Shown: positions 44,787-55,690 of the stretch, piece by piece
How the letters are laid out: each line of letters begins with the position of its first letter
How positions within the stretch are numbered: position 1 is the stretch's first letter
Assembly: GCF_024138165.1 (NCBI RefSeq)
Contig: NZ_CP100000.1
Coordinates: 2,666,001 to 2,730,000, forward strand
Origin: Halorussus vallis
Lineage (GTDB): Archaea > Halobacteriota > Halobacteria > Halobacteriales > Haladaptataceae
DNA length: 64,000 nucleotides
Direction: 5' to 3'
The notes under the pieces: generated by a model
Databases searched by the model: none
What the model was told of the DNA's origin: nothing
Seen by the model: only the letters and a program-made list of their open reading frames with translations
Position numbers and translations under genes: made by a program

Positions 44787-45146
44787 TCACTCCGAGACGA
44801 TGGCCGGCTGGAGTTCGCCGACGGCCGACAGTACCTCTTCGCGCTCCGTCTCGGGCACGTCGAAGGTGGCCAGTGACTCGTCGAGGTGGACCGCGATGAT
44901 CTCGAAGTCTCGCTCGGTGACGTCGAGGTGGTCGTGGGCCGCCTCCATCTCGGCGCCGGAGTACTCGACTGGACCGCCCGCCACGGAGCTAAGGAACTGG
45001 GTCTGATGGGCGCGCTGGGCCTCCATATCCACGTCCTCGAAGAAGTGGCTGACGCGCTCGTCCGAGACGATGCGGTCGTAGAACTCGTCGACGACTGCGC
45101 CGATGGACTCCTCTCCGCCGAGTCGCTCGTAGAGCGTTTCGGACAT
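44787..45146 (-). CDS. Group I truncated haemoglobin
   Basis: The 119-residue protein has LYERLGGEESIGAVVDEFYD with Tyr23 at position B10, FFEDVDM, GGPVEYSGAEMEAAHDHL with the proximal His (71 or 73) and a C-terminal FDVPETERE helix. This is the complete trHb1 (GlbN-type) pattern. Such globins bind O2 and NO and often oxidise NO to nitrate. It is divergent from the chemosensory cluster that encodes two H-NOX proteins, which makes NO or O2 handling a shared theme. Confidence 0.92.
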   Translation of the reverse strand: MSETLYERLGGEESIGAVVDEFYDRIVSDERVSHFFEDVDMEAQRAHQTQFLSSVAGGPVEYSGAEMEAAHDHLDVTERDFEIIAVHLDESLATFDVPETEREEVLSAVGELQPAIVSE

Positions 45147-45277: not shown

Positions 45278-45326
45278 TTTTATGGTTCGGCTCGAAGCCC
45301 CCTTAATGATAGGGACGATGTTATGA
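45278..45326 (+). promoter_or_regulatory. Promoter and possible leader peptide of cheY
   Basis: TTTTATGG at 45278-45285 lies about 22-28 bases before ATG 45306. That ATG opens a six-codon frame (MIGTML) whose TGA overlaps the cheY ATG (ATGA at 45323-45326). A leaderless mini-frame feeding cheY by coupling is possible; otherwise cheY has a 17-base leader. Confidence 0.5.
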
Positions 45327-45691
45327 ATATCGGGATTCTACTCGTCGACGACTCGAAGTTCATGCGCCAGCGGGTCAAGAGTGCGCTCGCGGACGACGAC
45401 TACCGCATCGTCGCCGAGGCGCCCAACGGCGCCTGGGCCATCCAGCGGTACAAGGAACACGCCGAGGAGGTCGACCTCGTGCTGATGGACATCGTGATGC
45501 GCAAGGCAAACGGACTGAAGGCGACGGCCGCCATCAAACAGCTCGACGAGGAGGTCAAGGTGGTGATGTGCACCAGCGTCGGCCAGCGTCAGAAGATACA
45601 ACTGGCGGCGCGGGCCGGCGCCGACGCCTACATCACCAAGCCGTTCGACGACGACGAACTCACCGACGCCATCGACGGAGTGCTGTCGTGA
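45323..45691 (+). CDS. cheY: Chemotaxis response regulator CheY
   Basis: The 122-residue single receiver domain has the acidic pair D9/D10 (LLVDDSKFM), the phosphoacceptor D56 (LVLMDIVM), T84 (VMCTS) and K106 (YITKPF), that is all catalytic residues, and no output domain. It is phosphorylated by the CheA encoded 66 bases downstream and would signal to the archaellum switch or another target. It is first in the cluster behind its own promoter. Confidence 0.93.
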   Translation: MNIGILLVDDSKFMRQRVKSALADDDYRIVAEAPNGAWAIQRYKEHAEEVDLVLMDIVMRKANGLKATAAIKQLDEEVKVVMCTSVGQRQKIQLAARAGADAYITKPFDDDELTDAIDGVLS

Positions 45692-45757
45692 CGTCGCGCC
45701 GACCCGCAGACGCCGTCGACCGGGGCCGCCGAGATGGGACCTCGCGGGGGTGCTCGC

Positions 45758-48700
45758 GTGGACCCGACTGACGACGCGTTCTTCCGCGAGGCCCGCACCC
45801 AGATTCGGGCGCTGAACGACGGCCTGCTCGCGCTCGAACGCGGCGAGGAGACCGCCGCGACCGTCGAGGAACTGTTCCGGGTCGCCCACTCGCTGAAGGG
45901 GACCTGCCGCGTCCAGGGACTCGCCGACGGCGGCGAACTCGCCCACGGTGTCGAGGACGTGCTCGCCGCGATTCGGGCCGGCGAGGTCGAACCGGTCCCG
46001 GACCTGATAGACCGAACGCTCGGCGTCGTCGACCGTCTCGAAGCGACCGTCGGGGCCGCCGCGACGGGCGAGGAGACCGAGTCCGACGTCGACGCGACGC
46101 TGGCGGCGCTCCGGGACTCGCTCGACGAACACCGCGAACGAGCGCCTGAGTCGGCGTCCGGCGACGGCCCGCTCGGTGCTAACCGCTCCGAAGCCGAAGC
46201 CGAGGCCGACTGGGACCCGACCGACGAGGGTCTGAGCGACGACGTGGTCGCGGCGCTCGAAGCCACGACCGAGTTCGACGACATCGACGCCCTCGTGGCG
46301 GAGATGGACGCCGAAGGCGAGGGCGGAGACGAGGACGAACTCGACGGATGGGGACTCCTCGACGACACGGCGGGTGAGACGGACGAGAACGCGACCCCCG
46401 CGACCGATCCGCTCGCGTCCGGCGGCCTCGAAACGCCCGGCGACCGCGAAACACCTGACGACCCGGAGACGCCCGCGGAACCGTCGTCGTTCTTCGAGAC
46501 GACCAAAGAGGCGGTCGACGACGAGGAGTCCATCGACGCGCTCCAGGCCGACATCGACGACGTCCAGTTCGGCGAGTTCGACGAGGACGACGAGTACACC
46601 ATCGAGGAACTCATCGCGCTCGACCCCGACGACGACCTGCCGGGCGGCGACGACCCGGCGTTCGAGGAGGCTCCGACCGACGCGTCCGAGGCGGTCGACG
46701 AAGGCGAGACGTCGGCCGACTCGCCGGCGGGGGACCCGGTCGACCTCCTCGGAGCGGACGCAGTACCCGACCCGGCGTCCGACGCCGCACCGGACGCGGC
46801 CTTCGCCGAGTCGGACTCCGACTCGGCGGAGGCCGCAGGTGGGGATGACGTCCCGGTCGACCTCCTGGGAGGCGGCGACGCCTCGGAGGCGGAGGCGGAG
46901 TCTCGCCCGCCGACCGCCGATGCTGGCCTAGCAGACGCCGCTGGGACGGCAGAGGAGTCCAACGTGACGGAGTCGGCGTCCGATTCGCCGGCCGACGAAG
47001 CGAGCGAAGCCAGCGACGACGATGAGAAACCGGGCGGTTTCCTCTTCGAACACGACTCCGAGGACTCCACAGAGACCGCCGACGAGGACGCTCCAGCCCC
47101 GGTCGACGAGCCGGCGGACGCTCCGGTCGCAGAACGCGAAGACGGCGAGGCCGACACCGACCCGGTCGAGGTCGAAGCCGACGCTTCCCCGGAACCGACC
47201 GACGTCGGCGATTCGGACCACTCCGAAGACTCGGCCGACGTTCCCGACCCCGACACGACGCCGACCGACGTCTCGCTCCCGGACGCCGAGGTGCCGGCCG
47301 CCGAGGTCCCCGACCCCGACTCGCTCCCCGAAACCGACCTCGGCGTCGACCTGTCGACCGACTTCGACGAGGACCTCGCGGCCGACCTCGACGCCGGCCG
47401 CGACGCCGTTCCGGACATGACCTTCTCCGTCGACGAGGAGATGGCGGCGTTCGAGTCCCGGTTCGACGACCTGCTCGGCGACCGGTCCGGCGAGGACGCC
47501 GGCGACGACCGCGACGTCTTCCGGGCCGCGGTGAGCACCATCGAGGAGAGCCGACTCGACGCCGAGGCGTTCCCGACGACCGACGCCGGGGCCGACTCCG
47601 AGCGGGCGGGCGACTTCGACCGCTTGCAGGCGATGACCGTCGATGTCGACACCGCCGACCGACTGCTCGACGTCGCCGAGGAACTGTCGCTGACCCACCT
47701 CCGACTCGACGAGGCGGTCGGTCCCGACACCGACGACGCCATCCGCGAGGAGGTTTCGAACCTCCTACGGACCGTCACCGAGTACCGCCGCACCGTGATG
47801 GACGTCCGACTCATGCCGCTGTCGGCGGCGGTCGAAACCATCCCGCGGACCGTCCGGGACGTCGCACGCGCCCAGGACAAGGAGGTCGACCTCGACGTGG
47901 GCGACGCCGAGGTCGAACTCGACCGGAGCATCCTCGACCGACTCCGCGACCCGCTGGTCCACCTCGCGCGCAACGCGGTCGACCACGGCATCGAATCGCC
48001 CGACGAGCGCGAGGCGGCGGGCAAGCCCCGCGAGGGGACCGTCGAGATTCGCACCGAACGCGTGGGCGACGAGGTCGTGGTCGAACTCGCCGACGACGGC
48101 CGCGGCGTGGATCCGGAGGCGGTCCGCGAGCGAGCGGTCGAGGCGGGCGTGCTCGGGTTCGAGGAGGCCGAGGACCTCTCGGACGACGAAACCTACGACC
48201 TGCTGTTCGAACCCGGCCTGACCACGACCGACGAAGTGACCGACGTCAGCGGCCGCGGCGTCGGCATGGACGTGGTCCGGCGGACGGTCGCCGACCTCGA
48301 CGGTTCCGTCGCGGTCGAGAGCGAACCCGGCGTCGGGACCACCGTCCGCCTGCGGGTGCCGGTGTCCATCGCGCTCACGGAGGTGCTGTTTGTGTCGGCG
48401 GCCGGCCGGACCTTCGGCATCCCGATGAGTTCGGTCGAGCAGGTGACGCCCGCGCCGCCGGTCGAGACCGAGGACGGCCGGGAGGTCGTCCGGCGCTCGG
48501 ACCTCGACCTCGTGGGCGGCCTGCCCGAGGGCGTCGAGGCGGCCGACGCCTACCCGCTCGTTCGGTTGCCCTCGGCGCTCGACCTGCCCGACGCTGGAGA
48601 GCACGGCGAACGGGACGCCGACGACGTCACCCAGGTCGTCTGGATTCGCTCGGAGGCCGAACGCATCGCCGTCTCGGTCGACCGCATCGTCACGACCCAG

Positions 48701-48814
48701 GAGGTCGTCGTCCGACCGTACGGCGACCTGCTCGCCGACGTGCCCGGCGTCGGCGGCGCGACCACCCTCGGCGACGGCGAGGCGGTCAACGTGCTGGAGG
48801 TGAGTTCGCTGTGA
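45758..48814 (+). CDS. cheA: Chemotaxis histidine kinase CheA with a very long acidic linker
   Basis: The protein is about 1018 residues from GTG 45758, which has a GGGGGTG ribosome-binding site five bases before it (ATG 45734 is the alternative). Order: HPt domain with H44 (ELFRVAHSLKGTCRV); a low-complexity Asp/Glu/Pro/Ala linker of about 470 residues (145-615); a dimerisation helix pair (from about 620, DRLLDVAEELSLTHLRLDEA); HATPase with HLARNAVDHGIES, DDGRGVD and SGRGVGMDVVR; and a C-terminal CheW-like domain (from about 868). No separate P2 domain is recognisable in the linker. It overlaps cheC by GTGA. Confidence 0.93.
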   Translation: MDPTDDAFFREARTQIRALNDGLLALERGEETAATVEELFRVAHSLKGTCRVQGLADGGELAHGVEDVLAAIRAGEVEPVPDLIDRTLGVVDRLEATVGAAATGEETESDVDATLAALRDSLDEHRERAPESASGDGPLGANRSEAEAEADWDPTDEGLSDDVVAALEATTEFDDIDALVAEMDAEGEGGDEDELDGWGLLDDTAGETDENATPATDPLASGGLETPGDRETPDDPETPAEPSSFFETTKEAVDDEESIDALQADIDDVQFGEFDEDDEYTIEELIALDPDDDLPGGDDPAFEEAPTDASEAVDEGETSADSPAGDPVDLLGADAVPDPASDAAPDAAFAESDSDSAEAAGGDDVPVDLLGGGDASEAEAESRPPTADAGLADAAGTAEESNVTESASDSPADEASEASDDDEKPGGFLFEHDSEDSTETADEDAPAPVDEPADAPVAEREDGEADTDPVEVEADASPEPTDVGDSDHSEDSADVPDPDTTPTDVSLPDAEVPAAEVPDPDSLPETDLGVDLSTDFDEDLAADLDAGRDAVPDMTFSVDEEMAAFESRFDDLLGDRSGEDAGDDRDVFRAAVSTIEESRLDAEAFPTTDAGADSERAGDFDRLQAMTVDVDTADRLLDVAEELSLTHLRLDEAVGPDTDDAIREEVSNLLRTVTEYRRTVMDVRLMPLSAAVETIPRTVRDVARAQDKEVDLDVGDAEVELDRSILDRLRDPLVHLARNAVDHGIESPDEREAAGKPREGTVEIRTERVGDEVVVELADDGRGVDPEAVRERAVEAGVLGFEEAEDLSDDETYDLLFEPGLTTTDEVTDVSGRGVGMDVVRRTVADLDGSVAVESEPGVGTTVRLRVPVSIALTEVLFVSAAGRTFGIPMSSVEQVTPAPPVETEDGREVVRRSDLDLVGGLPEGVEAADAYPLVRLPSALDLPDAGEHGERDADDVTQVVWIRSEAERIAVSVDRIVTTQEVVVRPYGDLLADVPGVGGATTLGDGEAVNVLEVSSL

Positions 48815-50178
48815 AACTCGACGTCGACAGCCTCGGGACGTTCTACGAGATGGCCCGGGAGGGCGCGGGACTCGCGGCCGACCGGCTGAGTTCGATGACG
48901 GGCATCCCCGCCCGCGTCGAGGTGACCCACCTCAACTTCACCCGCGACGGCACGGTCGCCAGCGACCTGGGTGACGGCGAGTGGGTCGGCGTCCGGGTGG
49001 GCCTGACCGACGGCTTCGAGGGCACCTCGCTGCTGCTGTTCGACGCCGAGAGCGCCCGGACCGTCACGTCGGCCGCCATCGAGGGCGTCGAACCCGTGGC
49101 GGGCGAGTCGCTCCACGAGAGCGCAGTGACGGAAATCGGCCAGGTGATGAACAACGGCTTCGTCGACGGGTGGGCGAACGTGCTCGACACGAACATCGAC
49201 GTCTCCGCGCCGACGTACGTGACCGCCGACGAACTCGGCGGCGTGCTGGCCGACTCGACGCCGACGCCCGCGGCCGACGAACTCGCGGTGCTGTTCCGCA
49301 ACAGCTTCGAGGCGGTCGGCGAGGAACTGACCTTCCGTCACTACCTCCTGCCCGCCCGCGACACCGTCGAGCGCCTGTTCGCGGCCCGCTCGCCGGCCCG
49401 CGCCATCGAGTTCGAGAAGCTGGTGGGCTTCGACCGCATCGCCCAGCGCGGCGCGGCCCAGGTCGCCCGCAACCTCACGCGGATGTCGGGCATCGAGATG
49501 GACGTCGACATCCGGCGCATCGACTTCGTCTCGCTCGACGCGATTCCGAGCGAGGTGTCGCCCGAACCGATGGTCGGCGTGGCGTTCAGCTTCGCCGGCC
49601 TGCCCAGCGGCTACCTCCTCTTTCTGTTCGACGAGCGTTCGGCGCGTCGACTGGGCGGCACCGACCCGGAGGCGCCCTCGTCGCCGGACTCCGAGACGGC
49701 ACCCCCGGCCGACGCGCCGAGGGCCGCGCCGGAGTCCGGCGCGGCCCTCGGCACGGAGACGGACGCCGCGTCCGGCGAGGTTCCCGCGACGGGACTCGGC
49801 GAGTTCCAGCGCGACGCCATCAAGGAACTGTCGAACGTGATGGCCAGCGGGATGCTCGACGGCTGGGCGAACCTGCTCGACACCACTATCGACCACTCAC
49901 CGCCGGCCTACGCCCACGACATGGGCGCGGCGGTGGTCGACCCCCTCGTCGTCGGCCTCGGGGCGTCCCAGGAGTTCGCGTTCGTCTTCGACACTTGCGT
50001 CGAGGCCGTCGACGGCGAGGTCGACCTCGACATCTACGTCATCCCCGACGAGGCCGACCTGAAGGAGGCCCTCGGCTCGTTCGACTTAGACCGGGTGGCC
50101 GACACCCGCCCCGAGGCGTCGACCGAACTCCCGGACGTGGACGTCGACCTCGACCGACTCGACTGGGAGGCGCTCTGA
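48811..50178 (+). CDS. cheC: Tandem CheC-type CheY-P phosphatase
   Basis: The 455-residue protein is two CheC units in tandem. The phosphatase consensus [D/S]xxxExxN-x22-P is present twice at exact spacing: SAVTEIGQ...P in unit 1, with Gln instead of the catalytic Asn, and DAIKELSN...P in unit 2, fully canonical. An acidic linker (about 285-330) lies before the second motif. CheC dephosphorylates CheY and in archaea pairs with CheD. Start GTG 48811 overlaps the cheA stop (GTGA). The Asn-to-Gln change suggests one unit keeps binding but loses efficient catalysis. Confidence 0.85.
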   Translation: MKLDVDSLGTFYEMAREGAGLAADRLSSMTGIPARVEVTHLNFTRDGTVASDLGDGEWVGVRVGLTDGFEGTSLLLFDAESARTVTSAAIEGVEPVAGESLHESAVTEIGQVMNNGFVDGWANVLDTNIDVSAPTYVTADELGGVLADSTPTPAADELAVLFRNSFEAVGEELTFRHYLLPARDTVERLFAARSPARAIEFEKLVGFDRIAQRGAAQVARNLTRMSGIEMDVDIRRIDFVSLDAIPSEVSPEPMVGVAFSFAGLPSGYLLFLFDERSARRLGGTDPEAPSSPDSETAPPADAPRAAPESGAALGTETDAASGEVPATGLGEFQRDAIKELSNVMASGMLDGWANLLDTTIDHSPPAYAHDMGAAVVDPLVVGLGASQEFAFVFDTCVEAVDGEVDLDIYVIPDEADLKEALGSFDLDRVADTRPEASTELPDVDVDLDRLDWEAL

Positions 50179-50441
50179 GCATCGAATCGGTTCGAACGGT
50201 GTCCCGGGGTTCGCTCATCCGGCGGTTTCGGCGCGCCGGACGCCGCCGCGGCCGTTTCGGTCCTCTCCGTTAGATAACACAATCCCGAACAATTATATCA
50301 TCTTGCTGAGTCGCGTTCGATTATGTTCCGTCGAGCGGGGGGTCGACCGACCGTCGAGACGCTGTCGCAGGGAGGACGCCCGGACCGGCCGACGCGGCGC
50401 GCGTCGGCCGCGGACCGACTCGACGCCAGGAGGTGTTGCCC

Positions 50442-50993
50442 GTGCACGGTATCGTGCTGAAGGGACTGAAGGACTTCGTGACGACCGAGTACGACGAGGC
50501 GGCGTGGCTGGAGATTCAGCGCACCGCCGGCCTCGAAGGCCAGATCTACGTCCCCGTCACCGAGTACGACGACGCCGACGTGCTCGGCCTCGTCGAGGCG
50601 GCGTCTGAGGTTTCCGGCGAGGCGGTGCCGGACCTGCTCGACGCGTTCGGGCGGTTCCTCGTCCCGCCGCTGGTCGAAGTCTACGGCGTCCACGTCGACG
50701 CCGACTGGACCGGCCTCGAACTCGTCGCGAACGTCGAGACGTACATCCACGAGGCGCTGCGGGCCAAACAGCTCTCGACCTACACGCCGCCGGCGCTCTC
50801 CTCGGAGTGGGTCGACGAGGAGACGGTCCTGGTGACCTACGACTCCGAGCGGGAACTCTGCCCGCTGGCGAAGGGACTGCTGCACGGCGTCGGGAACTAC
50901 TACGGCGAGCAGTTCGCGGTCAGCGAGGAGTCCTGCATGGGCGAGGGCGACGACGCGTGCGAACTCCTCGTCGAGAGCGCTCCGGGCGCATGA
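50442..50993 (+). CDS. Stand-alone H-NOX haem NO/O2-binding protein 1
   Basis: The 183-residue H-NOX (HNOB) domain has the typical start VHGIVLKGLKDFVTTEYDEA, the proximal haem His103 (VETYIHEALRAK), and the Y133-x-S-x-R137 propionate-binding motif (TYDSERELCP). All haem ligands are kept. The start is GTG 50442, set by GGAGGTG seven bases upstream and by the family start MHGI. Distal-pocket Tyr (which marks O2-binding types) cannot be judged without a model. H-NOX proteins regulate kinases or transducers; its place between cheC and a transducer gene points to the latter. Confidence 0.92.
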   Translation: MHGIVLKGLKDFVTTEYDEAAWLEIQRTAGLEGQIYVPVTEYDDADVLGLVEAASEVSGEAVPDLLDAFGRFLVPPLVEVYGVHVDADWTGLELVANVETYIHEALRAKQLSTYTPPALSSEWVDEETVLVTYDSERELCPLAKGLLHGVGNYYGEQFAVSEESCMGEGDDACELLVESAPGA

Positions 50994-51081
50994 CTCGCCG
51001 GAGTCTGCGGCGAACGATACCCCGGAAGCGACGCCGGCGCGCGCCGGCGTCGCCCCGGCGGGACCGAAGGGAGGTCGATTC

Positions 51082-51618
51082 GTGCACGGGATAATCTTCA
51101 AATCACTCAAGGACTACGTGGTGGCGAACCGCGACCACGAGACGTGGGACGCCGTCCGACGGGAGGCCGGCCTCCACCAGCGGGTCTACCTCCCCATCGA
51201 CACCTACGACGACGACGAACTGTTCGAACTGGTCGCGGCCGTCGCCGACCTGACCGGCGCGCCGATTCCGGACCTGCTGGAGGGGTACGGCCGCTTCGCG
51301 ACGGCCCAACTGCTCGACACCTACGGAAACGTCGTCGACGACGACTGGGACGCCCTCGACCTAGTGGCCAACACCGAGGAACAGATTCACACCGTCCTCC
51401 GGATGCGGAGCGCCGACCTGAACCCGCCGGAACTGGACTGTCGCCGGGACGGCGACGACCGGGTGACGGTGACCTACCGCTCGGAGCGGCAACTCTGCTC
51501 GGTCGCCCGTGGCATCGTCCACGGCGTGGCCGACCACTACGACGAACCTCTGTCGGTTTCGGAAACCGAGTGCGTCCACGCCGGCGGGGACCACTGCGAA
51601 ATCGTGGTCGAGCGCTGA
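51082..51618 (+). CDS. Stand-alone H-NOX haem NO/O2-binding protein 2
   Basis: The 178-residue second H-NOX has VHGIIFKSLKDYVVANRDHE at the start (GTG), proximal His103 (NTEEQIHTVLRMRS) and Y132-x-S-x-R136 (TYRSERQLCS). It is about as diverged from copy 1 as separate families usually are, so the two may differ in ligand affinity. A ribosome-binding GGGAGG lies before the GTG. A perfect hairpin follows, so the transducer gene downstream has its own promoter. Confidence 0.92.
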   Translation: MHGIIFKSLKDYVVANRDHETWDAVRREAGLHQRVYLPIDTYDDDELFELVAAVADLTGAPIPDLLEGYGRFATAQLLDTYGNVVDDDWDALDLVANTEEQIHTVLRMRSADLNPPELDCRRDGDDRVTVTYRSERQLCSVARGIVHGVADHYDEPLSVSETECVHAGGDHCEIVVER

Positions 51619-51627
51619 GGTCGGAAT

Positions 51628-51663
51628 CCGGCCGGGAGCGCCGCGCGCGGCGCTCCCGGCCGG
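51628..51663 (+). terminator. Perfect palindromic hairpin after the second H-NOX gene
   Basis: An unbroken 36-base palindrome with 18-base arms (starting CCGGCCGGGAGCGCCGCG) lies nine bases after the stop. It is followed downstream by an AT-rich promoter block, so it should separate the cheY-H-NOX and transducer-cheD transcripts. Confidence 0.6.
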
Positions 51664-51760
51664 TTCGTTGCGGCGGGTTCGTCGCGGTCGATTCGTCGCC
51701 GGATGCCAATCGTCCGACGATAGTTTTCTTATATAATTTATTGCTCATGTATCGCGAAGA

Positions 51761-51768
51761 TTTATTAA
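51761..51768 (+). promoter_or_regulatory. TATA box of the transducer operon
   Basis: TTTATTAA lies 25-32 bases before the transducer ATG at 51793, fitting a leaderless transcript. A second AT block (TTATATAATTTA, about 51729-51740) lies upstream and may bind a regulator. Confidence 0.55.
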
Positions 51769-51792
51769 GCCTTCTTGAAATGGTTTCTTCAA

Positions 51793-53568
51793 ATGACTGG
51801 GTTCTCGGCAAAGCTCGTCCCGGGATTCGTCCGGCGGAGCTACGCGCTCAAGTTCGGGTTGACGCTGGCGTTCGTCGGCGGCGTCGCCGCCGCGGGCGTG
51901 TACGCGACCGGACAATTCGATAGAACTGTCGTCGGAGCAACCTTCGGCGGCGCCATGCTCGCCGGCGTCGTCGGCACGGTCCTCTCCAGACGCACCGCGC
52001 GCCGACTCGACGGCCTCGTCGACAGCGCCGACCGAAGAGCCGACGGCGAGGAGCCGTCCTTCGAGAGCGGACGTGTCGACTGCGTCGGCCGGGTGGCCGA
52101 CGCGATGGCAGACACCCACGAGACGCTCCTCGACGAGCACCGCGCGCGCCGCGAAGCCGAGGACCTCAACGCCCGCATCGAACGCCGGGCCGACGAGTAC
52201 GGCGCCGTCATGCGCGAGTGCGCGGACGGCGACCTGAGCCGACGGTTGGACCCCGACGCCGAGAGCGAGGCGATGGCCCGCGTGGCCAGGGAGTTCAACG
52301 AGATGATCTCGGCGCTCGAAGCCGCCGCCGGCGACCTCACGCGGTTCGCCAACGAGGTCGCGACCTACAGCAAGGAGGTGACGCTGAGCACCCAGGAGGT
52401 CAGTTCGGGGAGCGGTCGGGTCGTCGACTCGCTCCGTGACATCTCGACCGACGCCGAGGTCCAGACCGACGACCTCCAGGCGGCCGCGATGGGGATGAAC
52501 CAACTCGCCACGACCGTCGAGGAGGTCGCGGTTTCCACCGACGAGGTGGCCAACATCTCCGAGCGGACCGCCCGGACGGGCGAAGTGGGCCGGGAGGCCG
52601 CCACCGCCGCGGTCGAGGGAATGACCGACATCGAGAACGAGTCCGAGGAGACGGTCGAGGCCATCGAGAACCTCGAATCCGAAGTCGAGCAGGTCGACGA
52701 ACTCATCGACTTCATCTCCGAGATTGCCGAACAGACCAACATGCTCGCGCTCAACGCCCACATCGAGGCGTCGCGGGCGGGCGAGCAGGGCGCGGGCTTC
52801 GCGGCGGTCGCCAACGAGATCAAGGAACTCGCCGAGCGCACCAAGGAGGCGGCGGGCGACATCGAGACGCGACTCAACCTCATCCAGCACCAGACCGACC
52901 GCACGGTCGGCGAGGTCCGCGAAACCAGCGACCGCATCTCCCAGCAGACCGACTCGGTCGAGAACGCGGCGGAGGCGCTGGCCGACATCGCCGAGTACGC
53001 CCAGGAGACGAACGTCGGCGTCCAGGAGATAACCGACGCGACCCAACAGCAGGCCGAGGCGACCAACGAGGCGCTCGCGATGGTCGAGGAGGCCGCGGAC
53101 GTCAGCGAGGATATCACCGCGGAGGCCGAGACGGTCGCGACCGCCGCCGAGTCCCAGACGATGGCGCTCTCGCAGGTATCCGAGAGCGCGAGCGACCTCG
53201 CCGACCAGGCGACCCGACTCAGCGACGAACTGAACGCGTGGGGCGACGACCGCGCGACGTTCGGCGACGCGATGGCCGGCGATGCCCCGGACGAAGGGGA
53301 CGTGGACGAAGTAGACGGTACGGACGCGGGCGAGGCGGACGGTCCGGACGAAGCAGACGGTGCGGACGAAACGGGCGGTGTGGACCCGAATACGGACGCC
53401 GACGAGCAGGCGACGGACGCGAATGTCGACGCAGGGAGCCACGAAACCGAGACCGAAACCCAGACCGAAGACGCCGAGGACCCGGACGCCGCTCGCGAGG
53501 AAACGCCCGACCCACTCGAACCCGACGGCGGCGAACCCGCCGACCTGTTCAGCGACGAGGGGGCCTGA
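51793..53568 (+). CDS. Methyl-accepting-type chemotaxis transducer without extracellular domain
   Basis: The 591-residue protein has two membrane helices (about 20-39 and 46-65) joined by only about six residues, so there is no ligand-binding domain outside the cell. HAMP-like linker regions follow, then the long coiled-coil signalling domain with the hairpin tip [20 protein letters not shown] and [20 protein letters not shown]. The C-terminal tail of about 100 residues is Asp/Glu/Thr/Ala-rich with short repeats. It must get its signal from a cytoplasmic partner; the two adjacent H-NOX proteins are the obvious candidates. Start ATG 51793 is supported by the TATA box. Confidence 0.9.
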
Positions 53569-53605
53569 CGATGCGACGGAGTCCGACTCTCGGAGGCGAT
53601 GACGG

Positions 53606-54112
53606 ATGAGCGGCGAACTGTCGAGCGGCGCGGCCCCCGAACCGGTCGGCGACCGACGCGACTGGGTGGAGTTCGTCCGGTTCGCGCTCGGCGAGGAGCG
53701 CTACGGCCTCGAACTCGGTCGGGTCAAGCGGATACTCCCCGACCCGACGGTGACGCCGGTGCCCCAGTCCGGTCCGGCCATCGCGGGCGTGACCAGCCTC
53801 GGCAGCGAGATTCCGGTCGTCGTCGACGGCCGACCGCTCCTCGGGTTGCCCGCGCGCTCGCCGGACGACGAGTCGGTACTGCTCGTCCTCGACCGGCGGA
53901 CCGGCCAGCCGACGGGACTCCTCGTCGACGAGGTGGCGGGAATCGACCCCTACCACGTCGACGACGTCCGGCCTCCCGCGGACGCCGAATCGTGGGAGCC
54001 GTCGGTCGACCGCCGCTGGTTCCGGGCCGTGGTCGACGACCCGACAGGCGGCGACGCGCTCGGCGTGTTCGACGCCGACGCGCTGGTCGCCAACGCGAGG
54101 GATGCGTCGTGA
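53606..54112 (+). CDS. cheW: Chemotaxis coupling protein CheW
   Basis: The 168-residue protein is a single CheW domain (VEFVRFALGEERYGLELGRV; VKRILPDPTVTPVPQSG; IAGVTSLGSEIPVVVDGRPL; LLVDEVAGIDPY). It links the transducer to CheA. It lies 37 bases after the transducer gene with a GGAGGCGATG ribosome site upstream. Confidence 0.9.
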   Translation: MSGELSSGAAPEPVGDRRDWVEFVRFALGEERYGLELGRVKRILPDPTVTPVPQSGPAIAGVTSLGSEIPVVVDGRPLLGLPARSPDDESVLLVLDRRTGQPTGLLVDEVAGIDPYHVDDVRPPADAESWEPSVDRRWFRAVVDDPTGGDALGVFDADALVANARDAS

Positions 54113-54143
54113 CGGGACGAGCGTCGGTTCGGGAGGTGTCCCG

Positions 54144-55169
54144 ATGAACCCCGGCGGCGACGCCGAGAACCACGACGACCCCCGACGCTCCGAGGGGCGA
54201 AAACGTCCCGCGGAGCGCGAGAACGACGGCGGCGAGGGGACCGCCCGTGAAAGCGCCGAACGCGACGGCCAGGAGCGCGCCGACGGACGCCAGGCCCCGG
54301 ACGCGAAACGTCGCCTCGAGAGTGCCGAACGACGGCGAACGGGCGCGGCGGACGGCGAATCCCGGCCGCCTGCGACCGCCGAACCTCGCGAGTCGAAGCC
54401 GACCGACGGGAACCGTCGGTCGGCGAGCGACGACGCCGAGAGCCGGTCGGTCGCGCCCCGGAAGTCCGAACCGTCGGGAGCGGGCCGCGGAGACGGGGCG
54501 ACCGAGTCCGGTACCGCGGCCGGAACCGACGAGACGCCGACCGAGTCGGCCGACGAGGACCGACTCGCGATACCGCTGGAGACGCTGGCGGTCCTCAACT
54601 GGCTGGGCGACACCGGCGTCGACGGGGCCGAGCGCCGCCTCAGCAAGGCGCCGGTCGACGACCTGACGGTGCAGACCGAGCAGGTCAAGGTCGGCTACGC
54701 CACCGCCGAAACCGGCCTCTCGCAGTTCAGCCCCGAGGAGCACGCGGGCGCCCGGATTCCCCTGAGCGAACCGCTCGTCGGCAACATCCTGGTGGTGTTT
54801 CCCATCGGGAGCGCGAACAAGGCGGCGGCTTTGATGCTCAAGAAGGCGGTCGACGACCTCTCGTCGGTGTCGGTCGAGATGGGCCTGGACGCGCTGGCCG
54901 AACTCTGTAACATGATGGCCAACGGCTTCGTCGACGAGTGGGCGACGCTGTTCGAGACGCCCATCGACACCGGTTCGCCCATCAGGGTCCGGAACGCCGA
55001 GCGAAAGCTGGTCGACAACGTTCTGAACCACTACGAACTCGGTCTGTACATCACCTCGCGGTTCACCATCCCGGAGTACGACGTCGACGGGACCATCTAC
55101 GTCTTCCCGGGCAAACCTGAGTTCGTCGAGAAGATATCGCGGGTCGGCCTCGACGTGATAGAGCAATGA
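54144..55169 (+). CDS. CheC-like CheY-P phosphatase with disordered N-terminal tail
   Basis: The 341-residue protein has about 140 N-terminal residues that are Arg/Glu/Ser/Pro-rich and probably disordered, then a CheC-type domain with the complete motif DALAELCN...(22)...P and the DEWATLFETP segment. A GGGAGGTG site six bases before ATG 54144 settles the start. With the tandem CheC at 48.8 kb it makes three phosphatase motifs in one pathway. It overlaps cheD by ATGA, indicating a CheC-CheD pair. Confidence 0.85.
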   Translation: MNPGGDAENHDDPRRSEGRKRPAERENDGGEGTARESAERDGQERADGRQAPDAKRRLESAERRRTGAADGESRPPATAEPRESKPTDGNRRSASDDAESRSVAPRKSEPSGAGRGDGATESGTAAGTDETPTESADEDRLAIPLETLAVLNWLGDTGVDGAERRLSKAPVDDLTVQTEQVKVGYATAETGLSQFSPEEHAGARIPLSEPLVGNILVVFPIGSANKAAALMLKKAVDDLSSVSVEMGLDALAELCNMMANGFVDEWATLFETPIDTGSPIRVRNAERKLVDNVLNHYELGLYITSRFTIPEYDVDGTIYVFPGKPEFVEKISRVGLDVIEQ

Positions 55170-55690
55170 AGACCTACGCGAGCGCCCCTGACGACCCCGA
55201 GCGCGAGCGACTGTTCGTCGGCGTTTCGGAGTACGAGGTGGTCGCCGACGGCACCACGCTCGTCGCCTACGGACTCGGCGCGTGCGTCGGCCTGGCCGTC
55301 CACGACCCGGAGAACGGCGTCGGCGGCCTCGCTCGCGCGATGCTCCCCCGGCGCTCGGACGGCGACGGAACGAGCGACGCCAAGTACGTCGACACGGCGG
55401 TCGAGACGCTGGTCCGGGAGGCCATCTCGGCGGGCGCGAGCTTCGGCGCGCTGGAGGGGTACGTCGTCGGCGGCGGCGACCTGCTGGACCTGAAGGGCCT
55501 GCCGCGCGAGGTGAGCGAGCGGAACGTCGAGACGGCCCGCGAGGCGTTCGCCGACCTCGACGTGTCGCTCTCGGGCGTCGCGGTCGGCGGCGACCGCGGC
55601 CGGACGGTGGAGTTCGACACCGCCGCCGGAGAGGTTCGAGTTATCACGGCCCACGACCCCGAGCCGACGCTGCTCGGCCGCGACGAGTAA
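55166..55690 (+). CDS. cheD: Chemoreceptor glutamine deamidase CheD
   Basis: The 174-residue protein has VAYGLGACVGLAVHDP with catalytic Cys40 and His46 and the conserved YVVGGGDLLDL region. CheD deamidates transducer Gln residues and, bound to CheC, links adaptation to CheY-P. It is the last gene of the cluster; no cheR or cheB follows. Confidence 0.92.
   Translation: MKTYASAPDDPERERLFVGVSEYEVVADGTTLVAYGLGACVGLAVHDPENGVGGLARAMLPRRSDGDGTSDAKYVDTAVETLVREAISAGASFGALEGYVVGGGDLLDLKGLPREVSERNVETAREAFADLDVSLSGVAVGGDRGRTVEFDTAAGEVRVITAHDPEPTLLGRDE

Follow-up and report, generated by a model that had tools for sequence, protein, structure and literature searches.

A candidate split NO-responsive receptor within a second chemosensory locus of haloarchaea

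What might a haloarchaeon sense, and what might it control, with a chemosensory gene block that encloses two free-standing H-NOX haem proteins? The window analysed here is a stretch of 64,000 nucleotides (C1:2666001-2730000) from a haloarchaeal genome of 5.05 Mb with nine MCP matches and five CheW-domain matches; another sampled genome, G374, is of the same genus. Among the named hits, LT46 and Halorussus aquaticus are nearest to it, which makes Halorussus the probable genus. An earlier note on this DNA had described cheY, cheA, a tandem cheC, two H-NOX genes, a transducer, cheW, a CheC-like gene and cheD as one block at 45323-55690. Pfam agrees and finds each of these nine chemosensory genes where the note had put it, with matches above the cut-off for every named part except HAMP, which matches only weakly.

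All nine genes lie on the + strand. The gene cheY (45323..45691) encodes a single receiver domain (Response_reg), in which the phosphorylation residues are kept according to the CheY alignment. It is followed by cheA (45734..48814; Hpt, HATPase_c and CheW domains and a long acidic linker), assigned by the tree to an H-NOX lineage, and by a double-domain cheC (48811..50178; CheC/CheX). H-NOX A (50433..50993; HNOB, 5e-32) likely starts at the GTG of VHGIVLKG near 50442, and H-NOX B (51082..51618; HNOB, 9e-36) is stand-alone like H-NOX A. The transducer occupies an ORF at 51775-53568, with a likely start at the ATG at 51793 (MCPsignal, PF00015, 1.2e-36). Further downstream are cheW (53606..54112; CheW, 1e-19), the gene for a CheC-like protein whose extended N-terminus is disordered (54102..55169; CheC, 1.7e-5, above the cut-off) and cheD (55166..55690; CheD, 6e-19). 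With CheA, CheW, CheY and a receptor all within one locus, the block is complete as a chemosensory system in these components; of the methylation pair, neither CheB nor CheR was found in the cluster by gene calls and Pfam. The archaellar che cluster is placed 1.85 Mb away, at C1:833-865 kb, and comprises CheF, CheA, CheB, CheY, CheD, CheC and arl genes. CheF and the archaellins (C1:833-855 kb) sit with that other che cluster rather than being linked to the H-NOX genes. Besides the archaellar one, the genome thus has a second chemosensory locus, and a complete one, in the H-NOX cluster.

The arrangement is not confined to the window. Of the 391 Halobacteria sampled, 85 have PF07700, in most cases unlinked to chemosensory genes. 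We inspected the H-NOX neighbourhoods with genes called by a script that had been checked on the window. In context A, a full cluster (CheA, CheW, CheY, CheC and CheD) surrounds H-NOX and the transducer; its hosts are the window's genome, G374, LT46, Halorussus aquaticus, Haloferax (H. marinum and H. profundi; G245 and G262), Salinigranum, Halocatena marina (G277), Actinarchaeum halophilum YIM 93972 (G183) and its relative YIM A00013. Because 12 loci from several genera share this full arrangement, gene content included, it is not due to chance. The earlier note had named synteny broken in all relatives as a refutation; synteny is instead conserved. In context B, H-NOX is followed directly by the transducer (about 24 loci, two families), and the two genes usually overlap by 4–8 nt, the commonest junction being an 8-nt overlap, ATGACTGA. 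In context C, H-NOX stands alone amid housekeeping genes. No H-NOX-MCP fusion was seen in Halobacteria, the two being separate ORFs in all haloarchaeal loci examined.

The CheA proteins of the cluster form a group of their own, separate from the archaellar CheA and a further type that occurs with CheB and CheR (100/100). The eight sampled cluster CheA score 586–635 bits against at most 514 bits for the others, with a profile built from the cluster CheA themselves, so that the gap is partly circular. A strict one-to-one link between this CheA lineage and H-NOX was rejected because, in a larger tree, proteins from three genomes without H-NOX (G156, G375 and G159) join the cluster group. The kinase has therefore evolved not only for H-NOX. 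These sister CheA belong to loci L207, L208 and L212, where the pathway may use another sensor.

The previously noticed lack of an outside domain in the transducer was borne out: the helices TM18-36 and TM46-64 are separated by a loop of 9 residues and no sensor domain is present. The HAMP match is weak (20.4 bits against a Pfam cut-off of 25), and the structure model is moderate (pLDDT 67), with helices that fit a HAMP-like segment. The MCP signalling domain is found in 30/30 H-NOX-linked transducers, and a sensor domain is absent from all 30 full-length H-NOX-adjacent ones, 28 of which have two TM helices 2–12 residues apart while 2 are soluble. Related transducers located away from H-NOX have an outside domain of about 230–300 residues after a similar first TM helix. 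Among the MCPs compared, the H-NOX-adjacent transducers form one clade (SH-aLRT 96), and neither Halocatena marina nor Actinarchaeum has any MCP in its genome besides the H-NOX-linked transducer. In Acetoanaerobium noterae, a single clostridial ORF (L229) strings together H-NOX, TM200-218, a loop of 7 residues, TM226-244 and MCPsignal. Since the same parts are fused there in the same order, the archaeal version corresponds to a split form.

SRII-HtrII is a familiar haloarchaeal case in which the sensor is a protein apart and the two-TM transducer that it drives has no sensor domain. The true partner of the transducer might accordingly be another protein, such as a sensory rhodopsin, with the H-NOX genes as passengers. 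HtrII has the same sensorless two-TM layout and even appears among the weak matches of the N-terminus of the window's transducer, at an E-value (0.48) that is not significant. However, the H-NOX and transducer genes are adjacent in about 31 genomes of four families, many with overlapping genes, the module contains no rhodopsin gene, and the fused bacterial form exists, all of which makes a foreign partner very improbable. SRII is a membrane photoreceptor that touches the TM helices, whereas H-NOX, a soluble haem protein, would have to act from the cytoplasm.

Both H-NOX proteins match HNOB (PF07700) far above the cut-off of 25.5 bits, with scores of 111 and 123 bits, and the solved structure closest to the AlphaFold model of H-NOX B is S. 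oneidensis H-NOX (TM 0.90, Z 23.7). As the earlier note had claimed, the haem His and YxSxR are kept in both: His103, Tyr132, Ser134 and Arg136 are present, together with Cys139, Cys164 and Cys172, and we infer from the sequence that both proteins bind haem. The tree places the second H-NOX among the second copies from G374, LT46 and Halocatena; H. aquaticus lacks it. Judging from this tree, it is an old duplicate. At the distal-Tyr position (Tt Y140), H-NOX A has Val/Leu/Phe and H-NOX B has Val/Trp/Ile, and no chemosensory-linked H-NOX has a distal Tyr, the residue being hydrophobic (Val, Leu, Phe, Ile or Trp). Because the distal Tyr is absent, the rule for O2-binding versus NO-selective H-NOX reviewed in PMC8738867 predicts that the linked proteins bind NO and exclude O2.

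The haem might nevertheless be of little importance if the H-NOX proteins were mainly thiol/zinc redox sensors, as proposed for the haem-free H-NOX of V. cholerae, which responds to oxidation (PMC7108781). The three zinc-type cysteines (139, 164 and 172) are indeed invariant in all chemosensory-linked H-NOX. However, the haem His is likewise found in 38/38 of the linked proteins, compared with 0/75 of the main orphan clade, a difference that corresponds to about one change on the tree and thus to one strong event, not 75. Of all 86 orphans, those of the His-less clade among them, 75 have all three cysteines. Since His is kept in the linked set and the cysteines mostly outlast His in the orphans, selection on the linked set is for haem. 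The fourth ligand position, moreover, is Glu in these proteins rather than His/Gln. We therefore regard a primarily redox-sensing role as improbable.

The orphan clade is of interest on its own account. Its 75 members (orphan H-NOX loci L082, L089-L157) have Tyr in place of the haem His in 41 cases and otherwise Ala/Thr/Val and others, mostly keep YxS/TxR and the three cysteines, and mostly adjoin genes for PRPP synthase and Ile-tRNA synthetase (for example L121 and L082). Going by these replacements, they are probably without normal haem ligation. One H-NOX in a deltaproteobacterial MAG (L194) shares 42% identity with those of haloarchaea, through either transfer between domains or a binning error.

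A truncated haemoglobin gene (44787..45146, - strand; Bac_globin, PF01152, 4e-23), encoding a probable NO/O2 haem protein, lies divergent from cheY. Loci that likewise have such a gene, divergent and next to the cluster, are those of LT46, H. aquaticus, Haloferax and Salinigranum; in G374, Halocatena and Actinarchaeum it is not there. The neighbouring haemoglobin supports NO chemistry without proving it. Of the two signals proposed earlier, NO is more likely than O2 given the missing distal Tyr. A search for a regulatory palindrome common to the haemoglobin gene and the cluster found none. The nirK family (TIGR02376) scores above the cut-off in 208/391 genomes and, by E-value, in about half of the full-cluster hosts; the window's genome has a weaker match only (2.5e-54). 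Among the 391 genomes, NirK is not enriched in module-bearing ones, and with nirK showing no association, a link to the host's own denitrification as the NO source is unsupported. Denitrification genes beside the two-gene pair were also considered and rejected, its neighbours being housekeeping genes, among them those for molybdate transport and thiamine synthesis.

The genes, residues, topology, synteny, co-inheritance and fused bacterial equivalent, as read from the sequences, suggest that the locus encodes a dedicated accessory chemosensory pathway whose receptor is split and responds to NO, a reading to which we assign a probability of about 0.7. The binding of haem and NO, the docking on the transducer and the direction of signalling might be envisaged as follows. 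H-NOX would bind haem through His103 and YxSxR; binding of NO, with O2 excluded, would break or shift the His-Fe bond and thereby change the H-NOX surface. The protein would dock on the cytoplasmic N-terminus or HAMP-like part of the co-encoded two-TM transducer. That H-NOX might drive this transducer is suggested because the adjacent transducers are sensorless and of one clade, the haem His is kept, the clostridial form is fused and two genomes have no other MCP. The transducer, without a sensor of its own, would change CheA activity through CheW, and CheA would phosphorylate the cluster's CheY, with the CheC phosphatases and CheD serving for adjustment. Where the host has an archaellum, phosphorylated CheY may reach the archaellum switch as well; where the host has none, phosphorylated CheY would have to act elsewhere.

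The closest known systems are the clostridial H-NOX-MCP fusions (Tt/Ct type), which share with the archaeal pair the order of H-NOX, two close-set TM helices and MCP, and thus a cytoplasmic haem sensor on a membrane transducer. They are one polypeptide, whereas the archaeal counterpart is encoded by two genes, and the described fusions have a distal Tyr and bind O2 (PMC8738867), unlike the archaeal H-NOX, which lack it. Shewanella HnoX/HnoK and H-NOX/DGC likewise have a free H-NOX beside an effector gene and an NO-selective pocket, and S. oneidensis H-NOX has the three zinc cysteines as well. The partners of bacterial stand-alone H-NOX, however, are histidine kinases or c-di-GMP enzymes (PMC9500659), in contrast to the archaeal chemoreceptor. 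HemAT (Htr10), the aerotaxis transducer of Halobacterium (PMC9680633), also represents haem-based gas sensing by an archaeal transducer, but there a soluble MCP includes the globin domain on the same chain and O2 is the signal, whereas the sensor of the H-NOX cluster is separate. The archaellar che system has CheY, CheA, CheC, CheD and CheW in common with the H-NOX cluster, which differs in lacking CheB, CheR, CheF and arl genes and in having a CheA of another lineage. We know of no earlier H-NOX signalling pathway in archaea, and the cluster would be the first. In the open full-text literature, we found no paper on H-NOX and haloarchaea or on heme NO-binding and Halobacteria; HNOB is absent from a survey of archaeal chemoreceptors (PMC9680633), and archaea are absent from an H-NOX review (PMC8738867). 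In plasmid records, no stand-alone H-NOX was found beside an MCP in the eight annotated places inspected, a small sample. Free H-NOX proteins feeding a transducer had been put forward as a new arrangement in archaea. This holds insofar as the arrangement is conserved in Halobacteria and no description was found, but it is neither a one-off nor without precedent, being the split form of a clostridial fused receptor. The parts are known; a split NO receptor that feeds its own archaeal che pathway and is kept without an archaellum appears to be new.

Two other haloarchaeal H-NOX contexts were seen. At L087:9609-10998 (G301), the H-NOX gene overlaps that of a 261-residue protein which matches HAMP weakly, has no MCP domain and may be a further H-NOX signalling partner. 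At L070:9726-11383 and at L232 (Natrinema salinisoli plasmid NZ_CP084470.1), H-NOX overlaps a gene of the pyridoxamine-5'-phosphate-oxidase family, whose product is another possible partner in archaea.

What, then, would the pathway control? One answer is plain NO/O2 taxis, in which the cluster feeds the archaellum via CheF, as other haloarchaeal receptors do, and the second CheA is merely a spare. The window's genome, G374 and the Haloferax hosts do have archaellins and CheF, and the receiver residues of the cluster's CheY fit this answer. However, in Halocatena marina and Actinarchaeum (genomes 98 and 94% complete), the full cluster is the only chemosensory system, and the only two CheW-domain genes are both from the cluster. 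Archaellins, CheF and CheB have no match in either genome. The ArlI-type and PilB3-type ATPases of other genomes, with types read from match range and length, are missing as well, although one further ATPase of the T2SSE family remains, as does a PilT-like enzyme. Their hyphal clade has been reported independently to be non-motile and to have lost the archaellum and a PilB3-type pilus system (PMC10067837). Archaellum taxis therefore cannot be the output in these two relatives, and a tactic output cannot be taken for granted. Archaellins are also missing from 13 of the 24 genomes with the H-NOX-transducer pair of context B. Such archaellum-less genomes in both contexts indicate that the pathway does not steer an archaellum in general. 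Steering may be one of its outputs where the host has an archaellum, as the host of the window does, and is probably not the pathway's only job. Taxis as the sole explanation thus seems rather unlikely to us.

Control of something other than the archaellum by archaeal chemosensory systems has been raised as a hypothesis in a comparative survey (PMC9680633). For the non-motile hyphal haloarchaea, we tentatively suggest a NO-sensing chemosensory pathway with a non-motility output, such as growth form, differentiation or surface behaviour. No output genes common to Halocatena and Actinarchaeum were seen beside the cluster. With this locus, one can ask by experiment whether chemosensory arrays of archaea govern functions other than the archaellum. 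In a natural split receptor, the sensor can be swapped or removed with the transducer untouched; the one-receptor systems of Halocatena and Actinarchaeum are simple enough for reconstitution, and genetic work could go through the Haloferax members. Many Natrialbaceae-like genomes (G330, G144, G128, G031, G107, G150 and others) have no archaellins yet encode CheA, CheB, CheR and several transducers, and archaellum-free chemosensory systems look common in haloarchaea.
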